From Lentisphaerota bacterium (lineage in GTDB: Bacteria > Verrucomicrobiota > Lentisphaeria > Victivallales > Victivallaceae), in assembly GCA_015061625.1 (NCBI GenBank), contig SUWG01000004.1, positions 62,001-126,000 of the forward strand: DNA of 64,000 bases, read 5' to 3'. The translations under genes were made by a program, and so were the position numbers. Shown in pieces: positions 4,033-33,420 of this stretch. The notes under the pieces were generated by a model. That model worked only from the letters and a program-made list of their open reading frames with translations. It was not told where the DNA came from and did not search any database. The first letter of the stretch is position 1. Each line of letters opens with the position of its first letter.

Positions 4033-4111
4033 GTCACCGACAAACAAAGCTCCGGTTTTTTAGTAAAAAATCAATCTTTTGCGGTTTCTGCATCATATAT
4101 CCAAAATATTC

Positions 4112-4140: not shown

Positions 4141-4196
4141 TATTAAGATGTAAATGTATGGTTCTTTTTGCCCCGAATAACAGATATGAGGTTTTT

Positions 4197-5087: not shown

Positions 5088-5092
5088 ACATT

Positions 5093-6695: not shown

Positions 6696-6709
6696 AAATG
6701 GGGACAACA

Positions 6710-10621: not shown

Positions 10622-10650
10622 TCAAACTTATAAAAAAGGAGTCTTTTATC

Positions 10651-11304
10651 ATGAAAAAATCCCTCATCTATGCGATAATGTGTGCAACATTTGTGCTTTC
10701 CGCCGGAGAAGCAGAATACGTCCGTCAGGAATTGGCAGCCGGAGGAGACATTCAACATTTCAGGATCAATGCCAATCTTCCGGAACAATTCAACCGCAAA
10801 CCATTGGAAGCCGGTTCAGTAAAGTTTGATTGCGATGAAAAAAATCTCTATTTTACGATCACCATGGCAGATAATGATTTGGTCAGTGAAGCAGAGAACG
10901 ATCAGTCCCCATTGAGGAATCTTGGAGATGCGATCCAAATCTTCCTCAAATCAGAAAAAGACACCTACATCTGGGAATTTCAGGTTGATTCTCAAGCTCA
11001 CAGAAGTTACTTCTTCCATCAAGGCCCCGGACGGATTTTTTATCCGAATGAAGCCACAGGCACCCCTGCTTTTTCCGTGGAAAACACCATTACCGATGGT
11101 CAGTGGATCACCAAAATCACGATTCCCTTGAGCATTTTCAAAGAAAAAGGATTCGATTTCACGGATGCAGAAAACTGGACATTTCTGATCGTGCGTCACA
11201 ATTTTTCCAGATTCAATGATGCAAAAGAAACCAGCAGTTACCCGCAGGTCGTTGGCAATATGTACAATCCGGCACGTTTCGGCAGATTGATTCTCAAAAG
11301 ATAA
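10651..11304 (+). CDS. Secreted CBM9-like protein, paralogue of the preceding gene
   Basis: 217 residues with a signal peptide (1-18) and one CBM9-like domain. Hallmarks are GSVKFDCDEKNLYFTITMAD, GDAIQIFLKSEKDTYIWEF and RHNFSRFNDAKETSSYPQ. It is shorter than its neighbour and lacks the extended loop there. AAAAGGAG-type ribosome site before ATG 10651. Its TAA stop directly abuts the stop codon of the opposing lplA gene with no spacer and no visible terminator hairpin. Confidence 0.68.
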   Translation: MKKSLIYAIMCATFVLSAGEAEYVRQELAAGGDIQHFRINANLPEQFNRKPLEAGSVKFDCDEKNLYFTITMADNDLVSEAENDQSPLRNLGDAIQIFLKSEKDTYIWEFQVDSQAHRSYFFHQGPGRIFYPNEATGTPAFSVENTITDGQWITKITIPLSIFKEKGFDFTDAENWTFLIVRHNFSRFNDAKETSSYPQVVGNMYNPARFGRLILKR

Positions 11305-16046: not shown

Positions 16047-16961
16047 TTACCGATCAATATCCTTGAATTTTTTATGTTCCTTATGATCCAGCAATGCGAC
16101 CGCCGGATTGCGCCGGCAAAAAGATGGCGTAACTCCGGTGATTTTACGGAATGCACGATTGAAACTGCAAACATTCCTGAAACCGACCGCCAAAGCAATT
16201 TCATAAACATCAAGTTTAGACTTCCGTAACAACTCAATCGCCTGCACCACACGATAAGTCGCCAAATACTGCATCGGACTGATACCGTTTTCACTGGTAA
16301 ACTGATGGATCATGTAACTGGCACTCATACCGGTTATTCTGGCCAGTTTTCCGATAGTCAATTCCTGCGTGTAATGTGTCTTTATATAAGACTCCACCTT
16401 TTCCACCTGCGATGAATTGGTAATTGAAGCCAAAAATTTGCTTTTCCCGTAAGAGTCACAAATAAAATCCGCAATCAATTGGAGCAACTCCTGTAATCCT
16501 TCAGCTTCCTCTCTGGTGAAACGGCGGGTATTTTTATGATAGGCAGCTATTTCATCCGGAGTGATATTCAAAAAAGAAAGATTTTCAGCAATTTCATCCA
16601 CTTCTTTACCGGAACATTTGGACAACCGGAATTGTCCGGCACACAATGCCCCCAGATATTCTCCGTGATCGAATATCGGCAAAACCAAATCGTAAAATCC
16701 GGCATGACAGCGATTCATCAGCGGTTTGCCGGTGTTGCGGGTTTCCTGCAAACGCTGACGGGTCTGCCGGGCACACATCTTACTGCCCTCTATACTGCTC
16801 ATTATTTTGAAGCACAAAGGGTTGCAATGATCCTGACCGCAAACCGAAAACGTTTTATCGTCCGGCTGGATCCAATCCAGCGGAATATGGCACAACTTGA
16901 AAAAAGCCGAGTGATACAAATGCAACAATTTCTTTTTAGACAAATCGCTTATGCTGCCCAT
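16047..16961 (-). CDS. PocR-domain AraC family regulator of the adjacent glycan locus
   Basis: 304 residues. The N-terminal half is a PocR-type sensor with its Cys cluster (CGQDHCNPLC, KMCARQTRQR, NRCHAGFYDLVLPI, GALCAGQFRLS), known to bind small ligands or a metal. The C-terminal 100 residues are an AraC DNA-binding domain with two helix-turn-helices (TIGKLARITGMSASYMIHQF and VYEIALAVGFRNVCSFNRAFRK). ATG 16961 has AAGGAG six bases upstream. It is divergent from the long sugar operon at 17166, the usual position of a dedicated activator. PocR-AraC proteins often respond to sugars or sugar-derived metabolites; the inducer here is unknown. Confidence 0.88.
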   Translation of the reverse strand: MGSISDLSKKKLLHLYHSAFFKLCHIPLDWIQPDDKTFSVCGQDHCNPLCFKIMSSIEGSKMCARQTRQRLQETRNTGKPLMNRCHAGFYDLVLPIFDHGEYLGALCAGQFRLSKCSGKEVDEIAENLSFLNITPDEIAAYHKNTRRFTREEAEGLQELLQLIADFICDSYGKSKFLASITNSSQVEKVESYIKTHYTQELTIGKLARITGMSASYMIHQFTSENGISPMQYLATYRVVQAIELLRKSKLDVYEIALAVGFRNVCSFNRAFRKITGVTPSFCRRNPAVALLDHKEHKKFKDIDR

Positions 16962-16994
16962 TTTCTGCTCCTTACTGTACAACGATTTTTGTAT

Positions 16995-17034
16995 AAAATA
17001 GCACAGCATTTGCAAAAAAGCAAGAATTGCAAAA
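16995..17034 (-). promoter_or_regulatory. Promoter of the PocR-AraC gene with direct repeats
   Basis: Minus strand -35 TTGCTT (17018-17023), 17 bases, -10 TATTTT (16995-17000). On the plus strand TTGCAAAA occurs twice (17010-17017 and 17027-17034), start to start 17 bases. Such direct repeats beside divergent promoters are likely AraC-type binding sites. Confidence 0.5.
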
Positions 17035-17052
17035 GAAAAAGCAGTAATTGAT

Positions 17053-17081
17053 TTGTCAAAAGCTTGCTTGACGAGTATATT
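17053..17081 (+). promoter_or_regulatory. Promoter of the glycan/sugar operon
   Basis: TTGTCA (17053-17058), 17 bases, TATATT (17076-17081), with start predicted near 17088 and a leader of about 78 bases. The TTGCAAAA repeats lie 20-45 bases upstream of the -35, well placed for an AraC activator. Confidence 0.65.
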
Positions 17082-17165
17082 TTTTACCGTAGAACGGATT
17101 CTTTCCGCCTTTTGGAAAGAAAAATTCCGTTGCACACAGCAATCCGATGGGAGTTTTCAGAGAAA

Positions 17166-17861
17166 ATGAGTAACAAAGTATTGGTTTTAGGAGCACATCT
17201 TGATGACTCCGTAATCGCTATGGGCGGTACCATACGCAAACTGGTCAAGTCCGGTTGTGAAGTTCATGTATTCTGCTTTGGCAACGGCGATGAAGCCTAC
17301 GTCGTGCCGGGGGGACAGCAAGCAGCCGCTGAACGTTTCACTCAAGGCGGTATCGAGGCCCATAACATTCTCGGTTGTGCAAGCATGGAGTGTTTCGATG
17401 TGGGTGATTTTGAAGTAGATGCCACTGCTGAATTTTACCGCCAGTGCATCGGTGCGATCCGCAAACATCAGCCTGACATCATTTTCGGTCACGATTTTGC
17501 CGAATATTTCCAGCATCTCGGCATGGCCCAGATGTCACTGGATGCCTGGAATCAGGCACGCTGGCATTGCACTGCCGACTACGGTACCGAACCGTGGGCA
17601 GCAAAAAAATATTATCAGTTTGAAGTGTGCGACACTTTGACCAAACCGACTCACTTCGTTGATGTTACAGATGAATTTGAAGATAAAATATCGGCAATGA
17701 TGGCTTTTGATCCGGAAGGCGGCAGACTTGGTGCATGGGAAGATGAAATGCGCGCCCGTGCCCGTTTTTACGGATCACGGATCGGAGTGAAATATGCGGA
17801 AGTTTTCCGGCAGAATTTCAACATTCCAATAACAATTAAAAACACGTCTGAATTATTTTGA
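17166..17861 (+). CDS. PIG-L family deacetylase (LmbE-like)
   Basis: 231 residues, full-length single-domain LmbE fold. The family's AHPDDE zinc motif appears as LGAHLDDSVIAMGG (residues 8-21). The His and both Asp are kept, but Pro is Leu and the final Glu is Ser. The third zinc His is in FGHDFAEYFQHLGM. These metal enzymes remove N-acetyl groups from amino sugars or conjugates. The ATG at 17166 has only a weak GA-rich leader; it was chosen because the beta-strand before the motif starts there. First gene of the operon, nine bases before the isomerase-like gene. Substrate presumably a sugar or small molecule of this locus. Confidence 0.85.
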   Translation: MSNKVLVLGAHLDDSVIAMGGTIRKLVKSGCEVHVFCFGNGDEAYVVPGGQQAAAERFTQGGIEAHNILGCASMECFDVGDFEVDATAEFYRQCIGAIRKHQPDIIFGHDFAEYFQHLGMAQMSLDAWNQARWHCTADYGTEPWAAKKYYQFEVCDTLTKPTHFVDVTDEFEDKISAMMAFDPEGGRLGAWEDEMRARARFYGSRIGVKYAEVFRQNFNIPITIKNTSELF

Positions 17862-17870
17862 GGAAAAATC

Positions 17871-19349
17871 ATGGCAAAAGAAAAAATAGTATCATTCGAC
17901 TCCGATGAGATCGGAGTGTACGGAGATGTTTTCACCTCTCCGTTACCGAAACGCAAATTGAAAGTCGGGATGCTCGGTCTGGGTTACTTTGAGTACTGGC
18001 GGATGTATCCGGCACTGGAAGCGCAGGTTTCCGGTGATTTGGACGGCATAAAGAACCGTCTGATCGAATTTCTGCCTGATTGCGAAATCATATATCCGGG
18101 CATGGTTGACACCCTGGACCGGGCGGAAGTTGCCGGATTGGCATTCAGAGAAGCTGAAGTTGATGCCATTGTGGTTGTCGCCGGAACATATCTGCCGGAT
18201 TTTATCACGATGCACGCCATCAACCGTTGCGCCGCCCGCCCGCTGGTGATCCTGTTCAACACCCAGACCGGAAACGATGTCAATCCGTTGGACAATTACA
18301 TTGCCACCATGCGCAACTCGGCTCTGATCGCCATTACTCAACTTTCCGGTAGCTTCCGCAAAATGAAGCTGGATTACAAAGTTGTCGTCGGTGAAGTTTC
18401 CGAAGTATCAGCATACCGGGAAATCGCCGCTGAAATTTCCGCTCTTGGGGCCTGCAAACGTTTAAGCAAATCCACCTACGGCATCGTCGGACACGTTTTC
18501 CGGGGAATGTACGATCTGGAGTTTGACCGGGCCAAAGTCAAAGGTTTTCTCGGCCCGGAAATCATGACCATTCAGGCGGAACACCTGATCGACCTCTGGA
18601 AGATCGTTCCGGATGATGAAGTCAATGCTGAAGCACAAAAACTGATCGATCGTTTCCGGACCCGCAACGTTGCTTTTGAAGATGTAAAAAAATCGGTCAA
18701 ACTCGGATTGGCGATGCGGGCGTTGTATAAAAAATTCAATCTGGATGCAATGTGCTTCCTCGGTCAGCATTATCTGGAAAAAATGACCGGAGCTCCCGCC
18801 CGTATGGGAGCATCAATGCTTATGGAGCAAGATCGTTTTACCGTTGCCTGTGAAGGGGATGTCGGCGGTCTGGTAATGATGGATCTGATGCAGGAATTTA
18901 CCGGCAACACTCCATTTCAGGCGGAATGGGGGCAATTTGATATTGCCAACAATGCCCTGTTTCTGCTCGGCCACGGCATCGGAACTCCATCTCTGGCTGA
19001 ATCAGATGATAAAATCACTCTTACCGGTTCTCCGGAAGAATGGGGCTTTTCCGGCGGCGGTTTGAATTACGAATTGATAATGAAACCGGGAACTGTAACT
19101 TTCGGCCATGTACTCAACTGCGGGGAAACCTACCGGATGTTGATCTCCAAAGGAGAATCTTTTGCTTATCCGACTCTGCCCTGCAATGAATTGCACGCTA
19201 TGATAAAGGTAAATAAGCCGGTCAAAGAATATTTGCAAGAATTGATCTCTGCCGGAGTAGCGCATCATGCCATTGCAGTTCACGGCGATTGTGCGGAGCA
19301 ATTAAAAAAATGCGCCGCCAATATGCGCATTGAATTTATTGAATTATAA
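17871..19349 (+). CDS. L-fucose/L-arabinose isomerase family protein
   Basis: 492 residues, the usual length for AraA/FucI-type isomerases, which convert aldoses to ketoses at a Mn site. N-terminal Rossmann-like part (KLKVGMLGLGYFEYWRMYPA) and a middle part with VVAGTYLPDF and LFNTQTGNDV. The C-terminal catalytic part has ACEGDVGGLVMMDLM, carrying a candidate metal Glu, and late VTFGHVLNCGETYRM. Clear family, uncertain substrate. Many such divergent members act on sugars other than arabinose or fucose, or on sugar-like compounds. GAGGA six to seven bases before ATG. It sits between a deacetylase and an M24 protein in one transcript. Confidence 0.8.
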   Translation: MAKEKIVSFDSDEIGVYGDVFTSPLPKRKLKVGMLGLGYFEYWRMYPALEAQVSGDLDGIKNRLIEFLPDCEIIYPGMVDTLDRAEVAGLAFREAEVDAIVVVAGTYLPDFITMHAINRCAARPLVILFNTQTGNDVNPLDNYIATMRNSALIAITQLSGSFRKMKLDYKVVVGEVSEVSAYREIAAEISALGACKRLSKSTYGIVGHVFRGMYDLEFDRAKVKGFLGPEIMTIQAEHLIDLWKIVPDDEVNAEAQKLIDRFRTRNVAFEDVKKSVKLGLAMRALYKKFNLDAMCFLGQHYLEKMTGAPARMGASMLMEQDRFTVACEGDVGGLVMMDLMQEFTGNTPFQAEWGQFDIANNALFLLGHGIGTPSLAESDDKITLTGSPEEWGFSGGGLNYELIMKPGTVTFGHVLNCGETYRMLISKGESFAYPTLPCNELHAMIKVNKPVKEYLQELISAGVAHHAIAVHGDCAEQLKKCAANMRIEFIEL

Positions 19350-19382
19350 CCATATATTGTTTTGAGAGGAAAGGATAAAACC

Positions 19383-20549
19383 ATGATCTGCATTCCCGAA
19401 AGTGAATTCAAAGAGCGCATCATCCGCATTCAGGCGGAGATGGAGAAAAACAATTTTGATGCCATTGCCGTTTACGGCGATGAATACCGCAAAGAAAATT
19501 TGCGCTATGTTTGTAACTTCTGGCCGATTTTTGAACGCGGCATCTGCGTTATTCCCAAATGCGGTGAACCGACTCTCGCCGGAGCACCGGAGGGCGAAAG
19601 TTACGCAAAAGAGATGTCTGTTTGGAGCGACTATCGCAACGTTAAAGAATTTGCCTGTGTTTCCGTTCCGGAAGAAATCGATTATCCGCTGGCGACTTTT
19701 TCCAGTTTGAAAGATATTCTGCAAACCGCTCTTAAAGGCGGCAAACGCCTCGGACTGGTCGGAGTTTGGGATATCCCTGCTCCCATCATGGAGCGGCTCA
19801 AAGCGGCTGTTCCGGGAGTGGAGATCATCGATGCAATGCCATTGCTGGCAAAATTGCGGTTGATCAAAAGTGCCAATGAGATCGCTTGTTTGAAAGAAGC
19901 CGGCCGTCAGGCATGTGAAGGCTACAAAAAACTTCTGGAATATGCCGTTGACGGCAATCCGGAAACCATGGCGGCCGGAGCCGCTGAAGGTGCGGCAAGA
20001 ATGGCCGGTGCGGAAGACATCAACTTCATGGTTTTCGGTTCAGGCAAACGTACCGAAACTGTTATCGGCCGGGCCACCAACAAAATCATGCGTAATGGCG
20101 AAATGGTGATGGCGGCAATGGCAGTACAGTATCAGGGCTATGTTTCCACGGTGGAGTATCCCTTTGTCATCGGTCAAGCCAGCGATGAGCAGAAAAAATT
20201 CCTCAATGTTCTCTTTGAAGCGGCCAATATCCAGCAAAACTACCTTAAAAGCGGTGTGGTTTCCGGAGAAATGGTCCGAAAAGTCAAAGAGGTATTTGCC
20301 CGTAACAACATGACCGAATACGACCTTTACCCGCCGATGCACGGTATCGGTCTGGCCGAAGCGGAATCCCCCTACCCGGATGAAACTGCCACCTATCTTT
20401 TTGAAAGCGGTATGTGTGTCAACAGCGATATCAGCATCTGGGGACACCCCGCAGGCAGCAACCGGATCGAAGAGGGTTTCGTAATCACCGAAGCCGGTCC
20501 GAAATCGATCACGCCCTTTATCCGTGAACTTGTAGCGAAAGGAATTTGA
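19383..20549 (+). CDS. M24 'pita-bread' protein (creatinase/Xaa-Pro peptidase fold), metal ligands mostly lost
   Basis: 388 residues: creatinase N-terminal domain (1-about 160) and M24 domain. The M24 His (PPMHGIGLAEAE) and final Glu (EEGFVITEAGPK) remain. The first Asp pair of the metal site is replaced: VMAAMAVQYQGY where DxG...GY is expected, and YVSTVEYPF where SDxTRT is expected. The middle Glu is Asp or absent (GMCVNSDISIW). So it is unlikely to be a normal dinuclear metallopeptidase; creatinase, a metal-free hydrolase of the same fold, is the nearest precedent. ATG 19383 follows GAGAGGAAAGGA. The in-operon partner proteins suggest it acts on a small C-N linked compound. Function inferred, fold confident. 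Confidence 0.82.
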   Translation: MICIPESEFKERIIRIQAEMEKNNFDAIAVYGDEYRKENLRYVCNFWPIFERGICVIPKCGEPTLAGAPEGESYAKEMSVWSDYRNVKEFACVSVPEEIDYPLATFSSLKDILQTALKGGKRLGLVGVWDIPAPIMERLKAAVPGVEIIDAMPLLAKLRLIKSANEIACLKEAGRQACEGYKKLLEYAVDGNPETMAAGAAEGAARMAGAEDINFMVFGSGKRTETVIGRATNKIMRNGEMVMAAMAVQYQGYVSTVEYPFVIGQASDEQKKFLNVLFEAANIQQNYLKSGVVSGEMVRKVKEVFARNNMTEYDLYPPMHGIGLAEAESPYPDETATYLFESGMCVNSDISIWGHPAGSNRIEEGFVITEAGPKSITPFIRELVAKGI

Positions 20550-20551
20550 AA

Positions 20552-20920
20552 ATGAGCGGTGGAAAAAGAGTTTGGTATTTTGCCGACGGTTATTTGCCGG
20601 AAAAAGTGAATAACGGCCCGGCCGAGGCCCACGAAGCATTGATGTTTTTCAATACCCATGAGCAGGATTCAGAAGTGACGATCGACATCTATTTCAGTGA
20701 CCGTGAACCGGTCAAAGGCATCAAAGTAAATGCCCCGGCGGAAAGAGTGATCGCATTGCGTCTGGATCACCCGGAAGATCTGGCCGGCACGGTCATTCCG
20801 CCCTTGACCCAATACGCCTTGCGGATCACTTCCGAACTGCCGATCGTCAGTCAATTCGGCCGGGTCGATACTACGCAGAATGCGATGTCTTACTATGTGG
20901 GGGTCGGTCATGCCGAATAA
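20552..20920 (+). CDS. ASRT-family protein (sensory rhodopsin transducer homologue)
   Basis: 122 residues, the full length of the Anabaena sensory rhodopsin transducer family, a small all-beta tetramer. The family pattern is clear: KRVWYFADGYLPE, a GPAEAHEALMFFNTHEQDSE stretch, VTIDIYFSDREPV, a VNAPAERVIALRL strand, and TSELPIVSQFGRVDTTQ. No rhodopsin gene is present in the window, so it is not used as a light transducer here. In the family many members lie in sugar metabolism clusters and are thought to bind small carbohydrate-like ligands. GGA eight bases before ATG 20552. It is overlapped by the following deacetylase gene. Confidence 0.88.
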   Translation: MSGGKRVWYFADGYLPEKVNNGPAEAHEALMFFNTHEQDSEVTIDIYFSDREPVKGIKVNAPAERVIALRLDHPEDLAGTVIPPLTQYALRITSELPIVSQFGRVDTTQNAMSYYVGVGHAE

Positions 20921-21797
20921 TGAATTTTACTTTGCCGTAACCGTTGATGACGTAGCATTGCAAGGTTGGTACAGCGAGAGCAACTTCCGGAAACTGCTGG
21001 CATTTTTTACAGAAGAAAAGGTCAATGCGACATTTTTTGTCGTTCCGGTGGATGAAGAAACCGATAAGCCCTTTAATGAAGTTTTTCCGGAATTGCCGGA
21101 AATCATCCGGGAAGCCCGGCAAAACGGTCATGCCTTCGGTCAGCACGGCATCCGTCACAACCGTTTTGAATTGGGTATTCCTCCGGCCATGGTGCTGGAT
21201 CTGCCTCACGAAACGGAAAACAAACGCTTTGCCGAAACTCATAAACAAGAGTTGGAAGCGGAACACACTAAAGAGAACTGCCTGAAACGCCTGAAATACG
21301 GTAGGGATATTCTGGAAAAAGGTCTTGGATTTGCCGTAAAAGGCTTCCGGGCTCCGGCAGCGCAGACCAGTGACGGGATGTTTGCGGCCTTGCGTGAAGC
21401 GTATGATTTTGACAGTTCGACCTGTTTTCAGGAAACCGGTTGGGATTATCTTTTGGATAAACTGGATGTGCCGCCACGGGAACTTGATATGGAACGCTGG
21501 AAAAAAATCACATCGGTCAATCCGGGCAAAGAATTTCCCGGCAGTTGCGACTACACATGGTTCCTGCCGGCAGAGCGTTATAATATAACCATGAAACTTG
21601 CAAAACATGATCTGGATGCCTGCATGGCTCTGGATGTGCCTTTTGTAACAGTAAGTCATGTCGATCCGGTTTTCAATGGTGAAGGTATCCGTTTCCTGCG
21701 AGAATTATTTCAGTATGCCAGAGAAAAAGCCAAAGCAATGGGAAAAGAATTGGTCTTTGCCAATTTGGAAACCGTTGCAGAAAAATACAATAATTGA
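20910..21797 (+). CDS. Polysaccharide deacetylase (NodB/CE4-like)
   Basis: 295 residues. CE4 motifs: the Asp pair in [13 protein letters not shown] (motif 1), the metal histidines in [11 protein letters not shown] (motif 2), then [19 protein letters not shown] (motif 3), and a late [10 protein letters not shown]. All metal ligands appear present, so deacetylation of a sugar or oligosaccharide is plausible. No signal peptide is seen, so it works in the cytoplasm, unlike most chitin deacetylases. It starts 11 bases inside the ASRT gene, so the two are translationally coupled. Confidence 0.85.
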
Positions 21798-21826
21798 GTG
21801 CCACCCATAACAAAGGAGATGTTTCT

Positions 21827-22567
21827 ATGAAAAAACAGAATGTTTCGTTGAGTATCCGTTCCGGTTATACCAATAACCGGAAGCCCATGGGCTTCACCCT
21901 GATCGAACTGTTGGTCGTTATCGCCATCATCGCTATTCTGGCGGCGATTCTGCTTCCGGCTCTCAACTCCGCCCGTGAGCGCGGCCGTGCCGCAAGTTGC
22001 ATAAACAACCTGAAACAGTTGGGCATGATGGTTGCCCAATATGCAGATGCTTCTGATGATTATGCTCCGGTTGCTGATGAATGGTTCCATGAACTTTCCA
22101 ACCTCGGTCTTCTGCATGACTATCTGGTTCAGGTAACTGAAGCCCACCCCGAAGGTGAAGCACGCTATGGAACCGATGAAAAACCGACCAACCTTGCGTG
22201 TCCGAGCCTGGTTTATGAGCCTTCATTTTTCAAATTCACTTACAACTATGCTATGAACAGCCGGACTTACGGCTACCGGAATGGTTCAGTTCCCTTGTGG
22301 GTCAGAAGAAAAATCATTACCATCGGCAACCCCAGTTCCCGCATGACTCTGGCAGATGGGCAACCTTCTGCTTCCGTGGCTTATGAAAACCGCACTGACA
22401 ACATGGGTATTTCCTCCAACCGGCACAACAACGGTTCAAATGTAGTTTTTGCCGATGGTCATGCCGATCACAAAAACCCGAAAGACTTGAAAGGCGGCAC
22501 CGGATTGTGGCAGGGGGATCCCGACTTTTTCGGCCCCAATACCAATGCTGAAGCAAATGACAGATAA
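21827..22567 (+). CDS. Type II pseudopilin-like protein (prepilin N-terminus)
   Basis: 246 residues. A 24-residue basic leader ends in the prepilin site MG|FTLIELL with Glu at +5, followed by the 20-residue hydrophobic helix and [21 protein letters not shown]. The C-terminal domain ends with [12 protein letters not shown], the H-type motif of the large pseudopilin families of Lentisphaerae and Planctomycetes. Such proteins are exported by type II-like systems, and many sit next to glycoside hydrolases. AAAGGAG eight bases before ATG 21827. It lies between the deacetylase and the giant secreted hydrolase, suggesting a role in its secretion or surface display. Confidence 0.88.
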
Positions 22568-22585
22568 CAGAGAATTATTCACTAT

Positions 22586-25500
22586 ATGAAATACAAATGT
22601 TTCCTTTTTCTTGCCGCATTCACCGCATTGGCGGTGAATGCCGGTAATATCATTGCCAATGGCAGTTTTGAGTCGCTGAAAAGTGACACCAATTTCCCAA
22701 CTGACTGGGGTATCCATTATATCTGGAAAGGTCCGGTAACCGTCGTCAATGATTTCGGTCATGCCCATGACGGTTCTGTCTCACTTCATTTCAATCAGCT
22801 GGCAGACAATGCTCACAAAACCCAGTTGACCATCGGCTCCAGCCGCTGTGCAACCCGGCCGGGAACCCGTTACCGTTTAAGCGTATGGGCAAAGGGCAAT
22901 GGCAGTGTATCAATGACTGCTTACTTTTCCTCAAAAGGGAAATATCTGTCTGATGATGGCACATTTCCTCCGGCCAATCCGTTGCAAAGTGAATTTTTCA
23001 CGATCAATTCAGATGAGTACCGGCAAATCACATTCACTTTCACTGTGCCGGAAATTCTGACCGCCATTACGGCAGATCATGAAAAACTTTCACCGGAAAC
23101 GGTAGAAATATTGCTCAATGTCAAAGGTGACATTTATCTTGACGATGTGGAACTTTACCCTGCCGATGAAGTTCCGCCGCAGGAAAAAGCCTTTGCAAGT
23201 GATCCGGATCGCCCGACGCTGATGACCATTCCCCGGTTGCCCAATGCTCCTGAAATCGATGGCAAATTGACCGATGCAGTTTGGCAGCAGGCTTCTGCGA
23301 CTACCGGATTCCGGGCGGTCGGCGGCATTTTGTCCCCCAAACAAACCATTGTATATGCCGGTTATGATGATGAAAATCTCTACATCGCATTCACCGCATT
23401 GCAACTTCCCGGCAGTGCAAACCCCGGCTTTGACCGTGAATTTGAAAGTTTTCCCTCTGACGTGGAAGGTTTTGAGATCTGGCTCGCTCCCGATGGTCAA
23501 CGCTGGTATCAACTGCTTTTAGTACCCGGCGGCGGATTCTTGAGCAACTCGGCCGATGGCGACACCCATTGGGGCAGACAAACCCGCTATGCGGCTACTT
23601 ATATCGAAAGTACCATGATGTTTGGCGGCATTCTGGCGACCGATTCCAGAACATGGTTTGGCGAAGTTGTTATTCCGTTTTCAGCTCTCGGCATGACCAC
23701 TCCGGCAGACGGCAGTGAATTGCGTATCAACTTCTGCCGCGATATCGCCACGGAAAAATCTACCGACGCCCGTTCCAGTGAAGATTGGACGAGTTGGAGC
23801 GATGTGACCGGATTCAACAACGTTGCCAGATATGGATATTTGCGTTTTGATTCACGCATTCCCGGCATTCAGTGTATTACTCTCAATGATCCATCCAATG
23901 GCAGCGTTGCCATTGCCGGCAGAAGTTTGTCTCAAAACAATGTGCAAACACGGATCCGGCTGCCGCAATTCAACAACCGCATTTTGCAAACTTCATCCGG
24001 CAATGCCGGAGAAACCGGTGAATTCAATCTTAATGATGAAATTCAAGTTTCCGGTTCTGAACAAACTCCGATGGTACTTGATTTTTCCGTCAGCGATCAA
24101 AACGGCAAAGTTTTAAGCCAGAACAGCGTGCCTTTTATTCTGATGCCGGCATTCGGCTTGAATTACCAACTCTTTTATTCTGCTAAAAAAGTCGAAGTCA
24201 CAGCGGACTACGCCCGTTTGTCACACTCCGACGGATGCAAAATCGTTTTTTCGGTCGAAAAAGCGAACCGGGAAAAAACCGCTTCCGGCGAATCTGCCGT
24301 ATCTGCCAATGACCGCAGCAGTAAATATGAATTCGACATCACCAGCTGGACTCCCGGTCAATACACTTTGACCGTACAACTCTTTGATCCGGCAGGCAAA
24401 TTGCTTGCCGGCAATTCCCGACCACTGGAAATCCCGGAAAAACCGGCATGGATGGATAATCCTTTGTGGCAGGATCGCAGTGTCCCGGCGCCATATACCC
24501 CCATCGTACAAAATGGCACTCAAACTTCGGTGGTTCTGCGTACATACACCTGGCAAAGCAACGGTCTGCCGCAACGCGTTTCATATCAGAATCATGAATT
24601 GTTTGCCGCACCGGCACAATTGGTTTTGAAAGTCAACGGCAGAGCGGAAACACTGCAGTTCCAGCCTTTGGAAGTGCTTGAATCATCTGAAGATCTGGTG
24701 CAGTATAAAATCAAAGGCCTATCCGCTTCAGTGGAATTAACCGGCACTTTGGATGTGGAATTCGACGGCTTTGCCAGATGGAAAGTGGAACTCAAAGCCC
24801 GCCGCCCCGGTGTACGGGTCACGGAATTCTCCCTGAATTTCCCGATCACCAGAGAAGATGCCTTATTCATGCGTGGTGACGGATACACCGGTTCACTGCT
24901 TCAGGATCGTTACACCCGTTCTCCCCGCCCCTCCCCGGTAGTTCATATCGGCAATGCGGAAACCATGTGGGGCAACTGGAAATATGATGCTTCCGGCTGG
25001 AATTGGACCGATAAATTTTTCCACGAATTAGTCATCGGCAGTGATCACTACGCATTCAGCGTGATGTGCGAAGACAATGAATTTGTCCGCGGCAATAAAT
25101 ATGCCAGTGTCAGCAACACCACCCCAGGAGCATCGGTATTGACCGTCACTCTGGTAAGTGAGCCGACTTTGCTGGATAATAAACCGCTGAAATATGACTA
25201 CTTCTTCCAGACTCTGCCGATCCGTCCGGAACCGACCGACCCCAAAAGATGGCACGCCGCTCTGGATCCGTCAAGTATCTTTACCATCAATCTGCCCGGA
25301 TATCTGAATACTCCGGAAGGCCAGAGACTGCTGGATGCCCTTTACGTCGGCGAATCATATCACGATCTGGCCCCTTCCGGATTTTCCACTTGGGCAAAAG
25401 ATCCGCAGGCAAGCGAAGAAGCATTGGCCAAATTTCACAGTCACGGGATGAAGATCGCATCCAATCTCTGGTATGCGGTCATGCCGGAAATTTGTCCTGA

Positions 25501-26437: not shown

Positions 26438-26447
26438 ATCAAATGAC

Positions 26448-26475
26448 ACTTCCGGCGGATGATTCCGCCGGAAGT
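26448..26475 (+). terminator. Perfect 11-bp hairpin between the two glycosidase genes
   Basis: ACTTCCGGCGG (26448-26458), six-base loop, CCGCCGGAAGT (26465-26475). No U-tract follows, so it is probably a partial terminator or an mRNA-stability element rather than a full stop. Confidence 0.55.
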
Positions 26476-26517
26476 TCCCATTGCGCCATAAACAATATCC
26501 TGAAAACACTTTTCAAT

Positions 26518-28545
26518 ATGAATTCTTATAAAAAATTTCTCTGGATGGAATTGATCGGCTTGGATAATACCCAAAGTGATTGCGGTGTATCAAAATATCT
26601 TGATTCACTGGATTTCACCCCTGATACAATTTCTATTTTCATGTGGGGACCGGATTTCCTGCACCATCATACCGGCCTTGATTCAGATGGTTTATTCCCC
26701 CCGGATGTCGGGGCATATATGGACTTCTGGTATCCGGGAGCCAAAAGCAGCAATCCGCCATGGAGCAAATTTCAACTAAAAAAAGTTGTTGATGGCTTTC
26801 ATGCCCGCAATGTAAAAGTATTTTTTTCGATCTTCCCCCGTTCGCTGAATAATCATTTTCACCGGGAATGGTTATCAGATCACCCGGAAGTGCGCCTGAC
26901 CACCTCCGGGATTCCCACTGATCCCAATACGATCAATCCGTTACGCCGCTTTAACAGCGGAGCCTACTATGAAGATTTCATCATCGGCAAAGCACGCGAA
27001 GCTTTGATCGATTACGGTTTTGACGGCTGGCATCTGGCCGATGGTTACAATCATCCGTGGTGTCAGTTGTGTCACGGAGATTATTCCGATGATATGGTCG
27101 ATCAGTTTTTAACCGATGCAAATCCGGAATTACCGCCATGGTTGGAAAAAACAGTCGGCAACGATCAAGATGCTATTGACCGGCGGGCAAAACTGATCTG
27201 GAACAAACTGCGCCGTCAATGGATAAACTTTTACTGCCGCCGCAATGAAAGATTTTTATCCAAAATTTGCGATATGGCTCATGCTGCCGGTAAAGAAGTT
27301 TCCGCCAACACTTGCTGGACACGGGATCCGGTGGAAGCCGTTTACCGTTACGGTATAGACTACCGGAAATTCAAAAAGGTCGGTATCGACACACTGGTTG
27401 TGGAAACCTGTTCTGCCGCCGGAGAATTGGAATCAGCCAGAAGCAGGGCCTCTTTTTCCGTCCCGTTTTTCCATGTTTTACAGTCAACAAGCCTGCTCAC
27501 CGGCGTGGCAGCAGACTCGGAATTGCTTTTCAACCAATGTGTTCAGGATACCACAGAGGGCTGGTCCACACTGCATCATGCTCCGGCATTTCTGGAGCGG
27601 GAAATAATGGCATACCCCAATTTATTCCGCTTTGATAAATCCGGCAAAATGCACCGGTGTTTTTCCGGATTCCAGATATGTCTTGCCACCGGGATCGAAA
27701 GTCACGAATGGCGTTGGCTGAAAAACAAATGGGATATTGCCTATGAATTTATGCCGTCTGCAATAGATTCTGCTGCTCTGGTCTGGAGCGAAGCATTGAT
27801 GGATGCAGAACTTGATTATTATCTTGAAACCCGCAACAGCTTGAATGCCAACATTCTGTATAATCTTTACAGTGCCGGAGCCCCGCTTCACACAGTGATC
27901 CCCATTAAAGCAGTTGATAAAGTTGATATGCCATTGGTATCGATTCATCCCGGCTTGCTTCCGGAAGCAGAATTTTCCAAACTTTTCAATGAACGCAAAT
28001 CGCCGCTCATTCTGATCGGCGAAATGCCACCTGATCTGCCCGAAGCAGATTTTGCTTTTGCAGAAGGCGACATGGAATTGCGCATTTACGGAGCCACCCC
28101 GGATGTTGAGGTAACTGCATTGGAAAAAGTCACCGTCAAATTACCGGAAGATATCATGGATATCCCCGAACCGGCAAGTTTTTTCAAAGAACAGTTTTAT
28201 CTGCCGCTTTCCCCGGAATTTTACCGGTTGGCAACCAGTTGTATCGAAAAAGTTGCCGGGCCGAATATCGAACTTGATGATCCGGGCCGTCCGGATTCAG
28301 CATTTTTCAAATTCAAAGTATTGCGCAGTAAAGACAAGCGGATACGGGTATTCATCACCAATGACGATATGCATTACGCATTCGGAAATATGTGTCTGCC
28401 GTATGAAGTTAAAACCATGGATATCGTCAACAATTTCCGCGGTCGGCCAATGTTCATTGAAGAACGCTTTGATAAAAAGCCAGGATCAATGACATTTATG
28501 GTGATCGCCCCCAAAGGCGTTGCAGTAATCGACATGAAAGAGTAA
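26518..28545 (+). CDS. Glycoside-hydrolase-like TIM-barrel protein, unknown specificity
   Basis: 675 residues, no signal peptide. The N-terminal 330 residues look like a (beta/alpha)8 glycosidase: HARNVKVFFSIFPRS, DYGFDGWHLADGYNH (candidate acid on strand 4), KEVSANTCWTRDP, and GIDTLVVETCSAAGELESA (candidate acid). A second, Rossmann-like region (about 440-520, LVSIHPGLL ... SPLILIGEM) and a beta tail follow, as in trimeric beta-galactosidase-type or GH-like proteins. I cannot place it in a numbered family. An in-frame ATG at 26443 is rejected because the hairpin at 26448 would then be coding; ATG 26518 lacks a Shine-Dalgarno sequence, so the start is uncertain. It probably acts in the cytoplasm on fragments released by the preceding enzyme. 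Confidence 0.68.
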   Translation: MNSYKKFLWMELIGLDNTQSDCGVSKYLDSLDFTPDTISIFMWGPDFLHHHTGLDSDGLFPPDVGAYMDFWYPGAKSSNPPWSKFQLKKVVDGFHARNVKVFFSIFPRSLNNHFHREWLSDHPEVRLTTSGIPTDPNTINPLRRFNSGAYYEDFIIGKAREALIDYGFDGWHLADGYNHPWCQLCHGDYSDDMVDQFLTDANPELPPWLEKTVGNDQDAIDRRAKLIWNKLRRQWINFYCRRNERFLSKICDMAHAAGKEVSANTCWTRDPVEAVYRYGIDYRKFKKVGIDTLVVETCSAAGELESARSRASFSVPFFHVLQSTSLLTGVAADSELLFNQCVQDTTEGWSTLHHAPAFLEREIMAYPNLFRFDKSGKMHRCFSGFQICLATGIESHEWRWLKNKWDIAYEFMPSAIDSAALVWSEALMDAELDYYLETRNSLNANILYNLYSAGAPLHTVIPIKAVDKVDMPLVSIHPGLLPEAEFSKLFNERKSPLILIGEMPPDLPEADFAFAEGDMELRIYGATPDVEVTALEKVTVKLPEDIMDIPEPASFFKEQFYLPLSPEFYRLATSCIEKVAGPNIELDDPGRPDSAFFKFKVLRSKDKRIRVFITNDDMHYAFGNMCLPYEVKTMDIVNNFRGRPMFIEERFDKKPGSMTFMVIAPKGVAVIDMKE

Positions 28546-28547
28546 GA

Positions 28548-28576
28548 TTGAAAAAACTGCAATCCGATGATATATT
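28548..28576 (+). promoter_or_regulatory. Internal promoter for the GH13-GH38 pair
   Basis: TTGAAA (28548-28553), 17 bases, TATATT (28571-28576), beginning three bases after the preceding stop codon. It would allow the glucosidase and mannosidase to be made independently of the upstream operon. Confidence 0.65.
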
Positions 28577-28608
28577 ATCAACAATATTGAGATTTTATGG
28601 AGTTTCCA

Positions 28609-30267
28609 ATGGGCAAATTAGGACCATCCTGGCTCAGAGATGCCGTTTTTTATGAAATTTATCCTTCCAGTTTTTATGACAGCAATGGCGATGGTATCGG
28701 TGACATTCCGGGAATTATCGCCAAACTGGATTATCTGACCGCATTGGGAGTAAATGCGGTATGGTTGAATCCATGTTTTGTTTCTCCATTTTGCGATGGC
28801 GGTTACGATATTGCCGATTACCGGCAAGTTGCCCCCCGTTTCGGAACCAATGATGATTTGTTCCGACTTTTTGCCGAAGCAAAAAAGCGGAATATAAAAA
28901 TCTGTCTGGATATGGTTCCGGGACACACCTCTACCGAACACCCGTGGTTCAAAGCCTCCTGCCAGCCGGAAGAAAATCCTTATTCCAATTATTACATCTG
29001 GAACAACAGTTGGCTGGCTCCTACTGACGGCTTGCGCATGATTTCCGGCTCGACCAACCGCAACGGCAGTTTCATGATCAACTACTTTGCCATGCAACCG
29101 GCATTGAATTACGGTTTTGCCAATCCCAATCCGGAGTACCCATGGCAGTTGCCGACCGATCACCCGGACGTACTGAAAGTGCGTGAAGAACTGAAAAACA
29201 ATATGAGATTCTGGTTGGAAAAAGGATGTGACGGCTTCCGGGTGGATATGGCCCCATCTCTGGTAAAAAAAGATCCCGGCAAAAAAGCGACAATGGCATT
29301 GTGGCGCGAAGTGCGGGAAATGTTTGACCGGGAATATCCGGAATGTGCGCTTATTGCCGAATGGGCTTATCCGCCGCAATCGTTAAAGGCCGGATTTCAT
29401 TGCGACTTCCTGCTGCATTGCGGAACCCCCGGTTACACAACCTTATTCCGCAATGAACCGGAAAGAGATCTATTCAATGTCAGCGGTCTGAATAAAAACA
29501 CTCAATACGAGGATGATGGCAACGACTACACCGTTACCAATCGGCACAGTTTTTTCGATGCCGCAGGTTTGGGAGATGCCAAAGCATTTTTCGACATCTA
29601 TATGCGACATTACGAATTGACCAGAAATGACGGATATATCTCCATTCCCAGCGGTGACCACGATATGCCCAGAATCAGCGATTTCCGGGATAAAAAAGAT
29701 TTGGCTTGTGTTTTTGCCTTTCTGATGACCATGCCCGGCGTGCCATTTGTGTACTATGGAGATGAAATCGGTATGCGTAACATACCAAACCTGATCTCCA
29801 AAGAGGGGGGTTTTACCAGAACTCAAGCAAGAACTCCGATGCAATGGGATGCCGGGAATAATGCCGGCTTTTCCGCCGCACCGGCTGAAAAACTCTTTTT
29901 GCCGGTAGACAGGGCGTCGGATGCACCGAATGTGAGTGACCAGATGTCACGCGCAGATTCCTTGTGGCATGAAGTGCAAAAGTTGATCGATCTGCGCAAA
30001 TCCACCCCTGCCCTGCACGCCGACAGTGAATTGATACTATTGCAAGCTGATTATCCGCTGGTATATCTGCGCCGGAACGGAAATGATTACATTTTGACCG
30101 TCATTCAACCGGCTCGCAGAAAATGGGAATGCAATATCACCCTGCCCGTCGCCGCCCAATCGCTTGAAAGCTTGAAAAATTGCAACATTTCAGCAGAAGT
30201 TTGCGGCACCTTGCTGCATTTAAGCGGCGATGACACTCAATACGGTATTTGGAAAGTAATACGATGA
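28609..30267 (+). CDS. GH13 alpha-glucosidase-like protein
   Basis: 552 residues. GH13 regions are clear: I (LDMVPGHTSTEHPWF), II with the nucleophile (CDGFRVDMA, about residue 211), III with the acid/base (ALIAEWAYP), and IV with the transition-state Asp (PSGDHDMPR). Its opening (DAVFYEIYPSSFYDSNGDGIGDIPGI) matches the oligo-1,6-glucosidase, alpha-glucosidase and trehalose-synthase subfamilies that cleave or transfer small alpha-glucosides. No signal peptide, so cytoplasmic. ATG 28609 is preferred because GGAG is six bases upstream. It is followed 13 bases later by the GH38 gene. Region III has Trp after Glu, unusual but seen in the family. Confidence 0.9.
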   Translation: MGKLGPSWLRDAVFYEIYPSSFYDSNGDGIGDIPGIIAKLDYLTALGVNAVWLNPCFVSPFCDGGYDIADYRQVAPRFGTNDDLFRLFAEAKKRNIKICLDMVPGHTSTEHPWFKASCQPEENPYSNYYIWNNSWLAPTDGLRMISGSTNRNGSFMINYFAMQPALNYGFANPNPEYPWQLPTDHPDVLKVREELKNNMRFWLEKGCDGFRVDMAPSLVKKDPGKKATMALWREVREMFDREYPECALIAEWAYPPQSLKAGFHCDFLLHCGTPGYTTLFRNEPERDLFNVSGLNKNTQYEDDGNDYTVTNRHSFFDAAGLGDAKAFFDIYMRHYELTRNDGYISIPSGDHDMPRISDFRDKKDLACVFAFLMTMPGVPFVYYGDEIGMRNIPNLISKEGGFTRTQARTPMQWDAGNNAGFSAAPAEKLFLPVDRASDAPNVSDQMSRADSLWHEVQKLIDLRKSTPALHADSELILLQADYPLVYLRRNGNDYILTVIQPARRKWECNITLPVAAQSLESLKNCNISAEVCGTLLHLSGDDTQYGIWKVIR

Positions 30268-30280
30268 ACAGGAGAAAAAT

Positions 30281-33200
30281 ATGCATCTTGAAAAATTGAA
30301 TATGCTGCAGACTAAAGTAAACTATTTCCTTACCTGTTTGAGGCGTGATTATGTCAAATCTTCAATCGATTTGAATGCAGAATATTGTCTCACAGATGAG
30401 CCGGTCTCTTTTGATGAAAAAAACAATTATCCATTCAAAAAAATTCATACCGGAGAAGCCTGGGGACACAACTGGCAATGTGCATGGTTTCACATCACCG
30501 GCAAAATCCCCGCAGAATGGCAGGATAAAACGGTGTGCTTCCGGATCAATATCGGTGGAGAAGGTCTTATTTTTTCGCCCTCCGGAATGCCGTTGCGCGG
30601 AGTGACCGATGGTTCAATTTTTCAAGTAACATATATCAATGAGTATTTCCCGCTCTATGATTCCGTTGTCAACGGTTCTGACGTGGAGTTTTGGGTCGAT
30701 GCCGGAGCAAACGGCTATTTCGGTATGAATTTGAATGGACACCCGCGGCTGGATATCGCAGAAAAAGAGGGAAGCGCATCGGCAACTGTCAACGCCTTGC
30801 AACTTTGTCTGACCGATGAAACTCTGCGGCAATTAAGTTTCGATTGGGAAATTGCCTTGGATTTGCTTAAAATATATCCTCAAAATCATTACCGGCACCG
30901 GCAGATTTTGACAATCTTGACCGATGCCATCGATCTTTATCAGGGCAATCAGAATAATGCGAAAAAAGTAAGGGGATTTCTTCAGCAAAAATTATTCAGT
31001 CAAAAAGCCTGTGACAGCGCATTGCAGGTAACTGCAGTCGGTCACGCCCATATTGATACCGCATGGTTGTGGCCGATACGGGAAACCATCCGCAAATGCG
31101 GCAGGACATTTGCCAACCAGATCGCCAATATTGAAAAATTTCCGGAATACATTTTCGGAGCTTCACAACCGCAGCATTATCAGTTTGTCAAGGATCATTA
31201 TCCCGCACTTTACGAAAAAGTAAAACAAGCCATAGCCGCTGGCCGCTGGGAAGTGCAAGGTGGTATGTGGGTGGAAGCTGATTGCAATCTTATCAGCGGC
31301 GAATCCATGATCCGGCAATTTCTGAATGGCAAAAATTTCTACATGGATGAATTTGGTATCGATGTAAAAAACCTGTGGCTTCCTGATGTTTTCGGTTATT
31401 CCGGTCTCATGCCGCAAATCATCAAAGGTTGCGGGTGTGATTTCTTTCTGACCCAGAAGATATCCTGGAACCAATTCAACAAATTTCCGCACACGACTTT
31501 CATCTGGCGCGGCATCGACGGCACGGATGTATTGACCCATTTCCCACCGGAAAGCGACTACAACGCCACAGTCACCCCCGAACAATTATCCGGAGCCCAG
31601 AATAATTTCCGGGAAGCAGGTGTATTGGATGAATTTCTTTCTCTTTTCGGCATCGGTGACGGTGGCGGCGGCCCCGGCGAAGAGTATATCGAAAGAGCAA
31701 TGCGTTTGAAAGATTTGGAAGGTTGTCCAAAAGTTACAATGGGTAAAGCCGAGGGATTTTTCGATCGGCTGAAACGCCATGCTGACAAACTGGAGATCTG
31801 GCAGGAAGAATTATATCTGGAAAAACATCAGGGTACTCTTACCACTCAAGCCAAAGTAAAAAAGGCCAACCGGCAACTTGAATATCTGTTGAAAAATGTT
31901 GAGCAGATCTATTCAGCTCTGCCATTGGAAAACTATCCGCAACAGCAGTTGGAAAACTTGTGGAAAAAACTTCTGGTAAATCAGTTCCATGATATCATCC
32001 CCGGCTCATCGATCACCAGAGTTTACAAAGAAACTCATCAGCAGCACCGTGAAATTTTCACCGGGTGTCAAAAGTTGCTCTCCGCAGCGGCAGAAAAACT
32101 TTTCATCGCCGATGATAATTCGATGACCATTTTCAACCCGCTTTCAGTAACATATACCGGAATGATTGAGTTACCCCACTCCTGGCAAGGGGCATCGCTT
32201 AACGGCAAAACACTTCCGGGAATACAGAAAAAAGGTCAAAGTGCTGAAGTTATGGTATCCATTCCCGGCAACAGTTTTGTCACTTTGAAAAAGTCTCAAC
32301 AAATTCTTCCGGAACCGGAAAAAATCGTGGATTCTCTGATTTTGGAAAATGAATTGATCCGCTGCGAGTTTGATCAAGATGCCCGGATCACCGCAATTTG
32401 GGATAAAGAAACTGACCGGCAATTACTTGCCCCGGGAACTGCGGGGAATGTATTATCGCTTTATTATGACGATCCGGCCAATTATGATGCATGGGATATT
32501 GACATCGGTTATGAAGCACAGAAACTGGAAAATGCCAGAGGTTGCCGATCGGTCAAATATGCGAGTGAGATACAGCAGTCGTTGGAGTTTGAGTTGACCA
32601 TAGGCAATTCAAAAATCCTTCAGCAAATCATTTTGCGGCAGAATAAACGTCTGGATTTCAAAACGACAGTTCAATGGAATGAAAATCATAAAATGCTGCG
32701 AACATCTTTCGCCCCGGATATTCATTCAACCGAAACAGCTTGTGATCTGCAATACGGCTTTATCAAACGGCAGAATACCGGCAATACCAGTTGGGATATG
32801 GCCCGTTATGAAGTCGCGGCTCACCGCTATATCGATATTTCCGATTCCCGATACGGTGTGGCATTGCTAAATAATTGCAAATACGGGCATAAAATCAACG
32901 GCGGCATATTGGATTTGAATTTATTGCGTTCACCGAAATATCCGGATTTCCATGCCGACATAGGCGAACATGAATTCACTTACAGTCTGCTTCCGCATTG
33001 CGGCACGCTGGTAAACTCTGATGTAATTGCCCAAGCGGCAATGCTCAATCAGGAGCCATTACGATTTACCGGTTTCGACCACCGTCAAACAGCCCTGCCC
33101 TGCCGGATCGAATCGGAAAATGTTTCTCTTGAAGTAATCAAAAAAGCCGAAAAAGAAAATTGCCTGATCATCCGTCTGGTTGAAACCAAAGGAGAAAATT

Positions 33201-33355
33201 CTCCGGCGGTGTTGCACTTCAATATTCCGGTAAAACAACTGGTGACCACCAATTTTATCGAATGGGGCGAATCGGCAGTTATGGAAGTTGTCGATCATCT
33301 GGCACAACTCAAGTTGAAGCCGTTTGAAATAAAGACATTCAAACTCATAGTCTGA
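30281..33355 (+). CDS. Alpha-mannosidase, GH38
   Basis: 1024 residues, the standard length of bacterial GH38 enzymes. An N-terminal beta domain (to about 240, with AWGHNWQCAWFHITG) precedes the catalytic domain, opening with the zinc motif VGHAHIDTAWLWPIRET. It continues with GGMWVEADCNLISGESMIRQ, and the nucleophile Asp in LWLPDVFGYSGLMPQI. The helical bundle has VNQFHDIIPGSSI, and C-terminal beta domains bind the substrate. It would remove terminal alpha-mannose from N-glycan-type or mannosylglycerate-type substrates. AGGAG six bases before ATG. It is the last gene of the locus and is followed by a strong terminator. Confidence 0.94.
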   Translation: MHLEKLNMLQTKVNYFLTCLRRDYVKSSIDLNAEYCLTDEPVSFDEKNNYPFKKIHTGEAWGHNWQCAWFHITGKIPAEWQDKTVCFRINIGGEGLIFSPSGMPLRGVTDGSIFQVTYINEYFPLYDSVVNGSDVEFWVDAGANGYFGMNLNGHPRLDIAEKEGSASATVNALQLCLTDETLRQLSFDWEIALDLLKIYPQNHYRHRQILTILTDAIDLYQGNQNNAKKVRGFLQQKLFSQKACDSALQVTAVGHAHIDTAWLWPIRETIRKCGRTFANQIANIEKFPEYIFGASQPQHYQFVKDHYPALYEKVKQAIAAGRWEVQGGMWVEADCNLISGESMIRQFLNGKNFYMDEFGIDVKNLWLPDVFGYSGLMPQIIKGCGCDFFLTQKISWNQFNKFPHTTFIWRGIDGTDVLTHFPPESDYNATVTPEQLSGAQNNFREAGVLDEFLSLFGIGDGGGGPGEEYIERAMRLKDLEGCPKVTMGKAEGFFDRLKRHADKLEIWQEELYLEKHQGTLTTQAKVKKANRQLEYLLKNVEQIYSALPLENYPQQQLENLWKKLLVNQFHDIIPGSSITRVYKETHQQHREIFTGCQKLLSAAAEKLFIADDNSMTIFNPLSVTYTGMIELPHSWQGASLNGKTLPGIQKKGQSAEVMVSIPGNSFVTLKKSQQILPEPEKIVDSLILENELIRCEFDQDARITAIWDKETDRQLLAPGTAGNVLSLYYDDPANYDAWDIDIGYEAQKLENARGCRSVKYASEIQQSLEFELTIGNSKILQQIILRQNKRLDFKTTVQWNENHKMLRTSFAPDIHSTETACDLQYGFIKRQNTGNTSWDMARYEVAAHRYIDISDSRYGVALLNNCKYGHKINGGILDLNLLRSPKYPDFHADIGEHEFTYSLLPHCGTLVNSDVIAQAAMLNQEPLRFTGFDHRQTALPCRIESENVSLEVIKKAEKENCLIIRLVETKGENSPAVLHFNIPVKQLVTTNFIEWGESAVMEVVDHLAQLKLKPFEIKTFKLIV

Positions 33356-33377
33356 CAAATCCGAATATTCTTACCAT

Positions 33378-33420
33378 GGGCTGTCGCAAAACTTGAAAAG
33401 TAAGCGGCAGCCCTGTTTTA
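33378..33420 (+). terminator. Terminator of the glycan locus
   Basis: Stem GGGCTGTCGC (33378-33387) pairs with GCGGCAGCCC (33404-33413) with one G-U pair, followed by TGTTTTATT. The T-tract overlaps the stop codon of the small opposing gene. Confidence 0.8.

Follow-up and report, generated by a model that had tools for sequence, protein, structure and literature searches.

The locus studied here lies in a window of 64,000 nucleotides, the whole stretch of DNA that was analysed, from a Lentisphaerota bacterium (contig SUWG01000004.1). Between positions 16047 and 33420, the ORF list and profile searches place a minus-strand PocR-AraC gene followed by ten plus-strand genes (17166-33355; Table 1), and all ORFs after the divergent regulator have the order and strand given in a preliminary description of this DNA. 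The plus-strand genes overlap or are separated by intergenic gaps of at most about 80 bp between likely starts, an operon-like arrangement. Past the GH38 gene, the first ORF of more than 200 aa is a GDPD phosphodiesterase gene starting at 34024, and a 114-aa ORF of uncertain coding status lies between the two. Most of the families first named are backed by Pfam or NCBIfam, the exception being the 700-aa protein, which matches no Pfam family. We refer to the PIG-L deacetylase, the AraA/FucI-like isomerase, the M24-fold protein, the ASRT protein and the NodB deacetylase as the core. As described before, no transporter or SusC/D pair is found among the 12 genes that run from the regulator through the GDPD gene; SusC was searched for in these genes, and a genome-wide search for SusD (PF07980) found none in the draft genome. 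At gathering score, a tRNA-Ser is the sole Rfam match. The prepilin N-terminal signature is matched 71 times in the genome (G000), so the pseudopilin is generic and not locus-specific.

Table 1. Genes and control elements of the locus, with positions in the window.
Feature	Position	Strand	Evidence
PocR-AraC transcription regulator	16047..16964	-	Pfam PocR 9e-22, HTH_18 5e-22
Tandem direct repeat, presumed PocR-AraC operator	17014..17050	+	repeat search, alignment, matrix scan
Promoter TTGTCA-17-TATATT (-10 at 17076-17081)	17053..17081	+	10 of 12 consensus positions
PIG-L/LmbE deacetylase (core)	17166..17861	+	Pfam 1e-15
AraA/FucI-superfamily isomerase (core)	17871..19349	+	NCBIfam SftI 2e-22; PDB L-arabinose isomerase 7e-8
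M24-fold protein without dinuclear metallopeptidase site (core)	19383..20549	+	Pfam 4e-21
ASRT-family small beta-sandwich protein (core)	20546..20920	+	Pfam PF07100 6e-29
NodB-type deacetylase (core)	20910..21797	+	Pfam Polysacc_deac_1 2.5e-12; no signal peptide by eye
DUF1559 pseudopilin	21794..22567	+	Pfam N_methyl/DUF1559
Secreted 1283-aa protein (accessory)	22586..26437	+	Pfam CBM_4_9 and GH123_N-related; signal by eye
GH42/PgaB-like fold protein (linked hydrolase family)	26518..28545	+	fold match; no signal peptide by eye
GH13 (accessory)	28597..30267	+	Pfam 1e-79; no signal peptide by eye
GH38 (accessory)	30281..33355	+	Pfam GH38N 8e-88; no signal peptide by eye

The regulator and its presumed operator

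The longest ORF of the regulator reaches a GTG start at 17135, a choice that would leave the promoter within the coding sequence; the Met start at 16964 is thus preferred. Upstream, two AAAAAAGCAATATC-like direct repeat copies (17015-17029 and 17036-17050) are 87% alike with a 21-nt spacing. For the window alone these repeats, already reported at the shared promoter, could be due to chance, but the same repeat is present in relatives. Indeed, a 21-nt-spaced repeat was seen by eye 5′ of the lead gene in four other loci (L031, L082, L052 and L053). A matrix trained on these and the window scored 35.0, 21.2, 18.8, 18.6 and 15.9 before the lead genes of the untrained loci L058, L043, L059, L050 and L038, respectively. 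Among the core gene starts not used for training, 4 of 50 scored above 18, against 3 of 255 other gene starts; most of the 50 are not lead genes of a PocR-bearing module, and the window lay outside the set. One of the three non-core starts precedes a pseudopilin/hydrolase operon adjoining the L037 module. Random sequence yields about 10 matches per Mb above score 14. The scan of gene starts missed the L082 site, the ORF there having been called from a position 5′ of its true start. Two observations speak against the operator reading. Four PocR-bearing loci (L037, L055, L063 and L066) have no matrix site before a core gene, and elsewhere in the window there are two more matches with a score of about 21, at 9278 and 43956, which may be chance or further targets of this regulator.

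The promoter of Table 1 is one of five matches at 10 of 12 positions. As the numbers of promoter and terminator matches in the region are those of chance, only the cross-species footprint was used as evidence. In an alignment of nine sites (the window and eight loci), a TATAAT-like -10 element lies downstream of the repeat at a near-fixed distance. In AraC-type tandem operators, a pair of directly repeated half-sites with a spacing of about 21 bp adjoins the -35 element, and the window site fits this layout in its direct half-sites, its 21-nt spacing and its place next to the -35. We presume that the tandem site is the operator of the neighbouring PocR-AraC protein; as a conserved, putative operator, it argues for the PocR-AraC control that had been proposed.

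Conserved residues and closest relatives

PIG-L/LmbE proteins carry a zinc motif composed of HXDD and a His (PMC4101496), which the window protein has as H14-L15-D16-D17 and H120, invariant in six sequences. Its closest PDB relatives are diacetylchitobiose deacetylases; deacetylation is nonetheless uncertain because the hydratase 5cgz is also among the PDB relatives. NodB/CE4 enzymes are marked by a catalytic Asp, a metal Asp, HxxxH, RxP and a late His. All of these are found in the NodB-type protein (D14, D15, H80, H84, R148, P150 and H251, invariant in eight sequences), which has no PDB relative by sequence at 1e-3. The isomerase is homologous to L-arabinose isomerase and SftI over most of its length, while falling far below the NCBIfam equivalog cut-offs (SftI 79.5 of 700 bits, AraA 35.5 of 622 bits); its Pfam match to Fucose_iso_C (6e-6, 26.3 bits) is also under the cut-off of 29.3. 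Its residues E328, E352, H368, H465 and H466 are invariant in 11 sequences. Of the AraA metal ligands, which we take to be E306, E333, H350 and H450, three align with E328, H368 and H465/H466, and E333 falls one residue off the invariant E352; the two-acid, two-His metal site of AraA/FucI enzymes is conserved. As far as sequence can tell, both deacetylases and the AraA-like isomerase keep their catalytic residues, and the idea of deacetylation as the theme of the locus is supported.

The M24-fold protein has both family domains of creatinase/prolidase by Pfam; by sequence it is not a metallopeptidase. In 1pv9, we take the metal ligands to be D209, D220, H284, E313 and E327 and the catalytic residues to be H192 and H291. 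Relative to these, D209 is replaced by Ala, D220 by Thr or Ser and E313 by Asp, and both catalytic histidines are lost; the five ligands D, D, H, E, E thus read A, T/S, H, D, E. The position of H192, presumably that of the creatinase catalytic His, is an Ile. The claim that this protein is without metal ligands holds for the two lost Asp and is slightly too strong for the site as a whole, as H284 and E327 are kept. It is possible, although we lean against it, that the protein has no catalytic function and serves as a partner or scaffold, a role compatible with the pathway favoured below. The loss of two presumed metal ligands and of both presumed catalytic histidines would suit such a role. 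However, this is the most conserved of the five core proteins (mean identity of 70% over 12 loci), it shares 67-68% identity with its planctomycete, Bryobacteraceae and Armatimonadota counterparts, and all 13 sequences compared keep its H319, D348 and E362.

The ASRT protein scores 100.9 bits with PF07100, for a gathering cut-off of 25. The signature SHEshChhN of the solo ASRT family (PMC2739507) reads AHEALMFFN in the window protein, with the His and Asn kept and the Cys replaced by Met. De Souza 2009 proposed, from operons with sugar isomerases, that ASRT reports sugar (PMC2739507). The window shares with these operons a solo ASRT gene next to a sugar isomerase, while they differ by an aldolase and a kinase; the words 'deacetylase', 'M24' and 'PIG-L' are absent as word starts from the main text of that paper. 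The Anabaena ASRT, which bears the same family name, was reported to bend DNA and to raise reporter expression (PMC8660804), whereas the window copy stands in a sugar operon with no rhodopsin gene among the 12 genes. In one other locus (L072, 7789-8832), the ASRT domain closes an ORF of 348 aa, the first 227 residues of which have no Pfam match at E 0.01.

The GH42-fold protein is encoded by a 700-aa ORF and is likely 675 aa long. GH42 and GH35 enzymes combine this fold with two catalytic Glu; the window protein matches the fold, and its D175 and E347 are invariant in nine sequences. PgaB and exo-beta-D-glucosaminidase are among its structural neighbours. Similar scores are reached by many unrelated glycosidases, and a TIM-barrel fold in common shows no substrate.

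Recurrence of the core in other genomes

Each core gene was looked for in 288 genomes of the phylum to which the window belongs. The isomerase profile matched 23 of them at E 1e-20, with sharply bimodal scores: ten genomes reach at least 914 bits and the next reaches 100. One of the ten, G284, carries a second match, a 618-bit fragment at a contig end. ASRT is found in 20 of the 288 genomes, including all ten with the isomerase orthologue. NodB orthologues (at least 340 bits; next 77) occur in nine genomes, all within the ten, and PIG-L orthologues in nine as well, eight within the ten and one in G249, where the match scores 265 bits and lies close to the end of a contig. As for the two isomerase genomes without PIG-L, the G284 copy is cut by the contig end and the isomerase contig of G158 is only 3,334 bp long. 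Full-length type-1 M24 genes (at least 710 bits) are present in 11 genomes, namely nine of the ten plus G079 and G094, which have no isomerase; in G158 an M24 fragment adjoins the isomerase. The overlap of the core genes has a hypergeometric probability below 1e-12 (2e-9 for the isomerase in ASRT by genus), a test that ignores kinship and in which M24 was entered as 12 (the 11 full genomes and the G158 fragment), with nine shared.

A wider scan of 84,980 species genomes with one pattern gave 173 candidate stretches, reduced to 26 loci, ten of them apparently in genomes already among the 288. Most are from Lentisphaerota, with one each from a planctomycete, Armatimonadota, Bryobacteraceae, Kiritimatiellae and, as filed, 'Uhrbacteria' and 'bacterium'. 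The planctomycete, Armatimonadota and Bryobacteraceae genomes have the core in whole or in part with no PocR seen, and the Armatimonadota genome has no ASRT. In the 26 compared loci, window included and the second G284 locus (L029/L075) excluded, PIG-L was found in 22, NodB in 21, M24 in 17, ASRT in 14, PocR in 13 and the GH42-fold family in nine; all were selected by the isomerase, several stop at contig ends, and these counts depend on script thresholds. Twelve loci hold all five core genes together. NodB precedes the isomerase in 18 of 21 loci, follows ASRT in the window and L031, and follows M24 in L052.

In whole-genome searches of 16 further isomerase genomes, type-1 M24 was found in 13 (as two fragments in G288) and ASRT in nine. 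In G298 and G300 the M24 gene lies mid-contig, apart from the isomerase, so the link within the core is not mere adjacency. Nor is every part essential, given the three genomes without type-1 M24, the seven without ASRT, and fetched stretches without NodB (L067) or PIG-L (L058). Homologues of the isomerase on plasmids (63 records) are all below 60% identity; the one inspected, from Rhizobium (24.6%), adjoins an ABC sugar transporter, and its gene table, possibly incomplete, names no core partner.

For the five core proteins and PocR, the pairwise identity matrices are correlated in each of the 15 pairs (r 0.29-0.81 on 9-22 loci, values reached by no more than 23 of 2000 permutations), PocR-AraC and the isomerase giving r=0.80 over 13 loci; common descent of the species may account for part of this. 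No correlation with any of these six was seen for the GH42-fold protein (r -0.24 to 0.07, for 7-9 loci only). Its family is nonetheless one that, in sequence searches, tracks the core by presence: it occurs in 15 of 259 genomes, including all ten with a full type-1 M24 that could be placed in the sample. G284 was taken as outside this sample because its copy in L028 is not listed, and the isomerase genome G158 has no GH42-fold match. We read the divergence patterns as the regulator and core probably travelling together while the GH42-fold hydrolase is replaced by relatives.

Thus, the enzyme combination highlighted in the preliminary description is a real one, recurring and often accompanied by a PocR-AraC regulator. 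The possibility raised there that neighbours shuffle freely in relatives receives a split answer: the core does not shuffle and most hydrolases do. We conclude that a real, conserved sugar-catabolic module is present, with a presumed regulator site, and that the other hydrolases of the locus are mostly local additions. No description of this combination was found in the open-licence PMC papers searched, and the module is apparently undescribed.

Several related clusters were also observed. On another contig of the same genome, L083 (G000:C10:2000-21000, 3617-12141) holds a second, diverged set of PIG-L, M24 and AraA-like isomerase, together with, by eye, a DeoR-like regulator, an opposite-strand amidohydrolase-like gene and a glycosidase-like gene; a 468-aa minus-strand ORF (L083:6049-7452) was dropped as antisense to the amidohydrolase-like ORF. 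Other ASRT genes of the phylum, in L030 and L041, lie beside a LacI gene, an Amidohydro_2 gene and a diverged M24 that shares about 29% identity with the core one, and in L035 the order is M24-Amidohydro_2-ASRT; L039, L040 and L042 resemble these by gene order, Pfam having been run on the neighbours in L030, L035 and L041 only. Judging from the second set and these other ASRT clusters, sugar operons of this group seem to include M24-fold proteins repeatedly. In L084 (G058:C21, 5870-12244), paralogues of PIG-L and M24 lie close to an alpha-L-rhamnosidase and a regulator of the GntR/IclR type. In L079 (G079, 8351-11864), a type-1 M24 without isomerase is flanked by a Gfo/Idh-type dehydrogenase and a phosphotriesterase/lactonase-like gene (NCBIfam).

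A possible route for an acetylated amino sugar

We propose, with about even confidence, that the locus encodes a cytoplasmic pathway induced by PocR-AraC, in which an imported amino-sugar glycoside would lose its N-acetyl groups, be cleaved by the GH42-fold enzyme and yield a product that is then isomerised. The regulator would bind a small product, occupy the tandem site by the -35 and turn the operon on. Outside the cell, the secreted 1283-aa protein and others would trim the glycan, and an acetylated amino-sugar glycoside would be imported by a transporter encoded elsewhere. PIG-L and NodB would strip the N-acetyl groups, the GH42-fold enzyme would then cut the deacetylated glycoside, and the isomerase would convert the freed aldose to a ketose. 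ASRT would sense or bind the sugar of the isomerase step; by analogy with the DNA-bending Anabaena protein, it could instead assist PocR-AraC. The M24-fold protein would perform a conserved non-peptidase step. The absence of a transporter or kinase from the core counts against this pathway. A more specific version, which we advance only tentatively, is an intracellular route spread over several phyla for a di-N-acetylated amino-sugar glycoside, with two unlike deacetylases acting first, a later cut by a GH42-fold enzyme from an unassigned family, a new and highly constrained reaction on the sugar by an M24-fold protein without its metallopeptidase site, and ASRT as sugar sensor in the cytoplasm.

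The order of deacetylation and cleavage follows archaeal chitin use, in which Dac deacetylates diacetylchitobiose and GlmA cuts afterwards (PMC6566704). The window shares with that pathway a PIG-L protein nearest Dac and a second-step glycosidase with GH42-like domain order (PMC6566704); it differs by adding NodB, the AraA-like isomerase, the M24-fold protein and ASRT, and GlmA structures have 9-11% identity to the GH42-fold protein in fold comparison. The likeness is one of analogy, not of membership. Similarly, the locus shares a regulator, glycosidases and sugar enzymes with the polysaccharide utilisation loci of Bacteroidetes and differs from them in having no SusC/D pair.

Additional genes were noted at other copies of the module. 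A URO-D family gene, which might carry out methyl transfer, lies in or adjoins the module in L037 (2734-3729), L067 (5642-6763) and L068 (13127-14218). A GDSL esterase/lipase gene is found after the isomerase or within the module in L053 (11470-12219), L055 (1690-2424), L038 (16358-17107) and L066 (6598-7314), which hints at O-acetyl groups too.

We consider it unlikely that the module serves the use or detoxification of a small glycoside, such as a glycosylated thiol, an aminoglycoside-like compound or another natural product, dismantled by PIG-L, NodB and M24. The core is cytoplasmic, the M24-fold matches include the small-molecule enzymes creatinase and ectoine hydrolase, and the best NCBIfam model for PIG-L is BshB1; however, that match scores 90 bits, far below the cut-off of 182.5, and the GH42-fold protein near nine of 26 loci, with further hydrolases at others, counts against this reading.

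Still less should be expected of the broader reading first given to this DNA, in which the entire 16 kb acts on one acetylated polymer bearing mannose and glucose. The single strand and short gaps are consistent with it, as is a contig (L091) from the planctomycete's phylum where a type-1 M24 is followed by GH38, the one other fetched stretch in which GH38 was labelled. Against it, GH13 is labelled beside no other fetched copy of the module, and the accessory genes at other copies are different (GH130, fucosidase, sialate-esterase-like, GH2 and sulfatase). The regulator and core hold together, while the view of all 16 kb as one glycan locus is not supported; and because GH13 and GH38, on which the mannose/glucose inference rests, were not seen beside other module copies, that inference is weak. 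A substrate deduced from neighbouring hydrolases was likewise rejected, as the accessory hydrolases identified by running chosen neighbours against Pfam differ between loci. The secreted hydrolase varies between loci, and the 1283-aa protein has 41% and 21% identity to two relatives; a modelled structure of its C-terminal part was set aside (pLDDT 51). Finally, it is very improbable that the cluster is biosynthetic or modifying and produces a surface sugar in deacetylated form: PIG-L and NodB enzymes do occur in biosynthesis, but the 12 genes hold hydrolases, with no glycosyltransferase, nucleotide-sugar enzyme or flippase above curated cut-offs.

Altogether, a recurring core beside changing hydrolases points to an undescribed breakdown pathway for an acetylated sugar. 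For ASRT outside Anabaena, defined partners are now at hand together with a presumed operator; an M24-fold protein that has been repurposed and is strongly constrained comes to light; and a glycosidase-like family without Pfam match, whose presence follows the module, is named. Together, these could reveal what Victivallales and their relatives eat.
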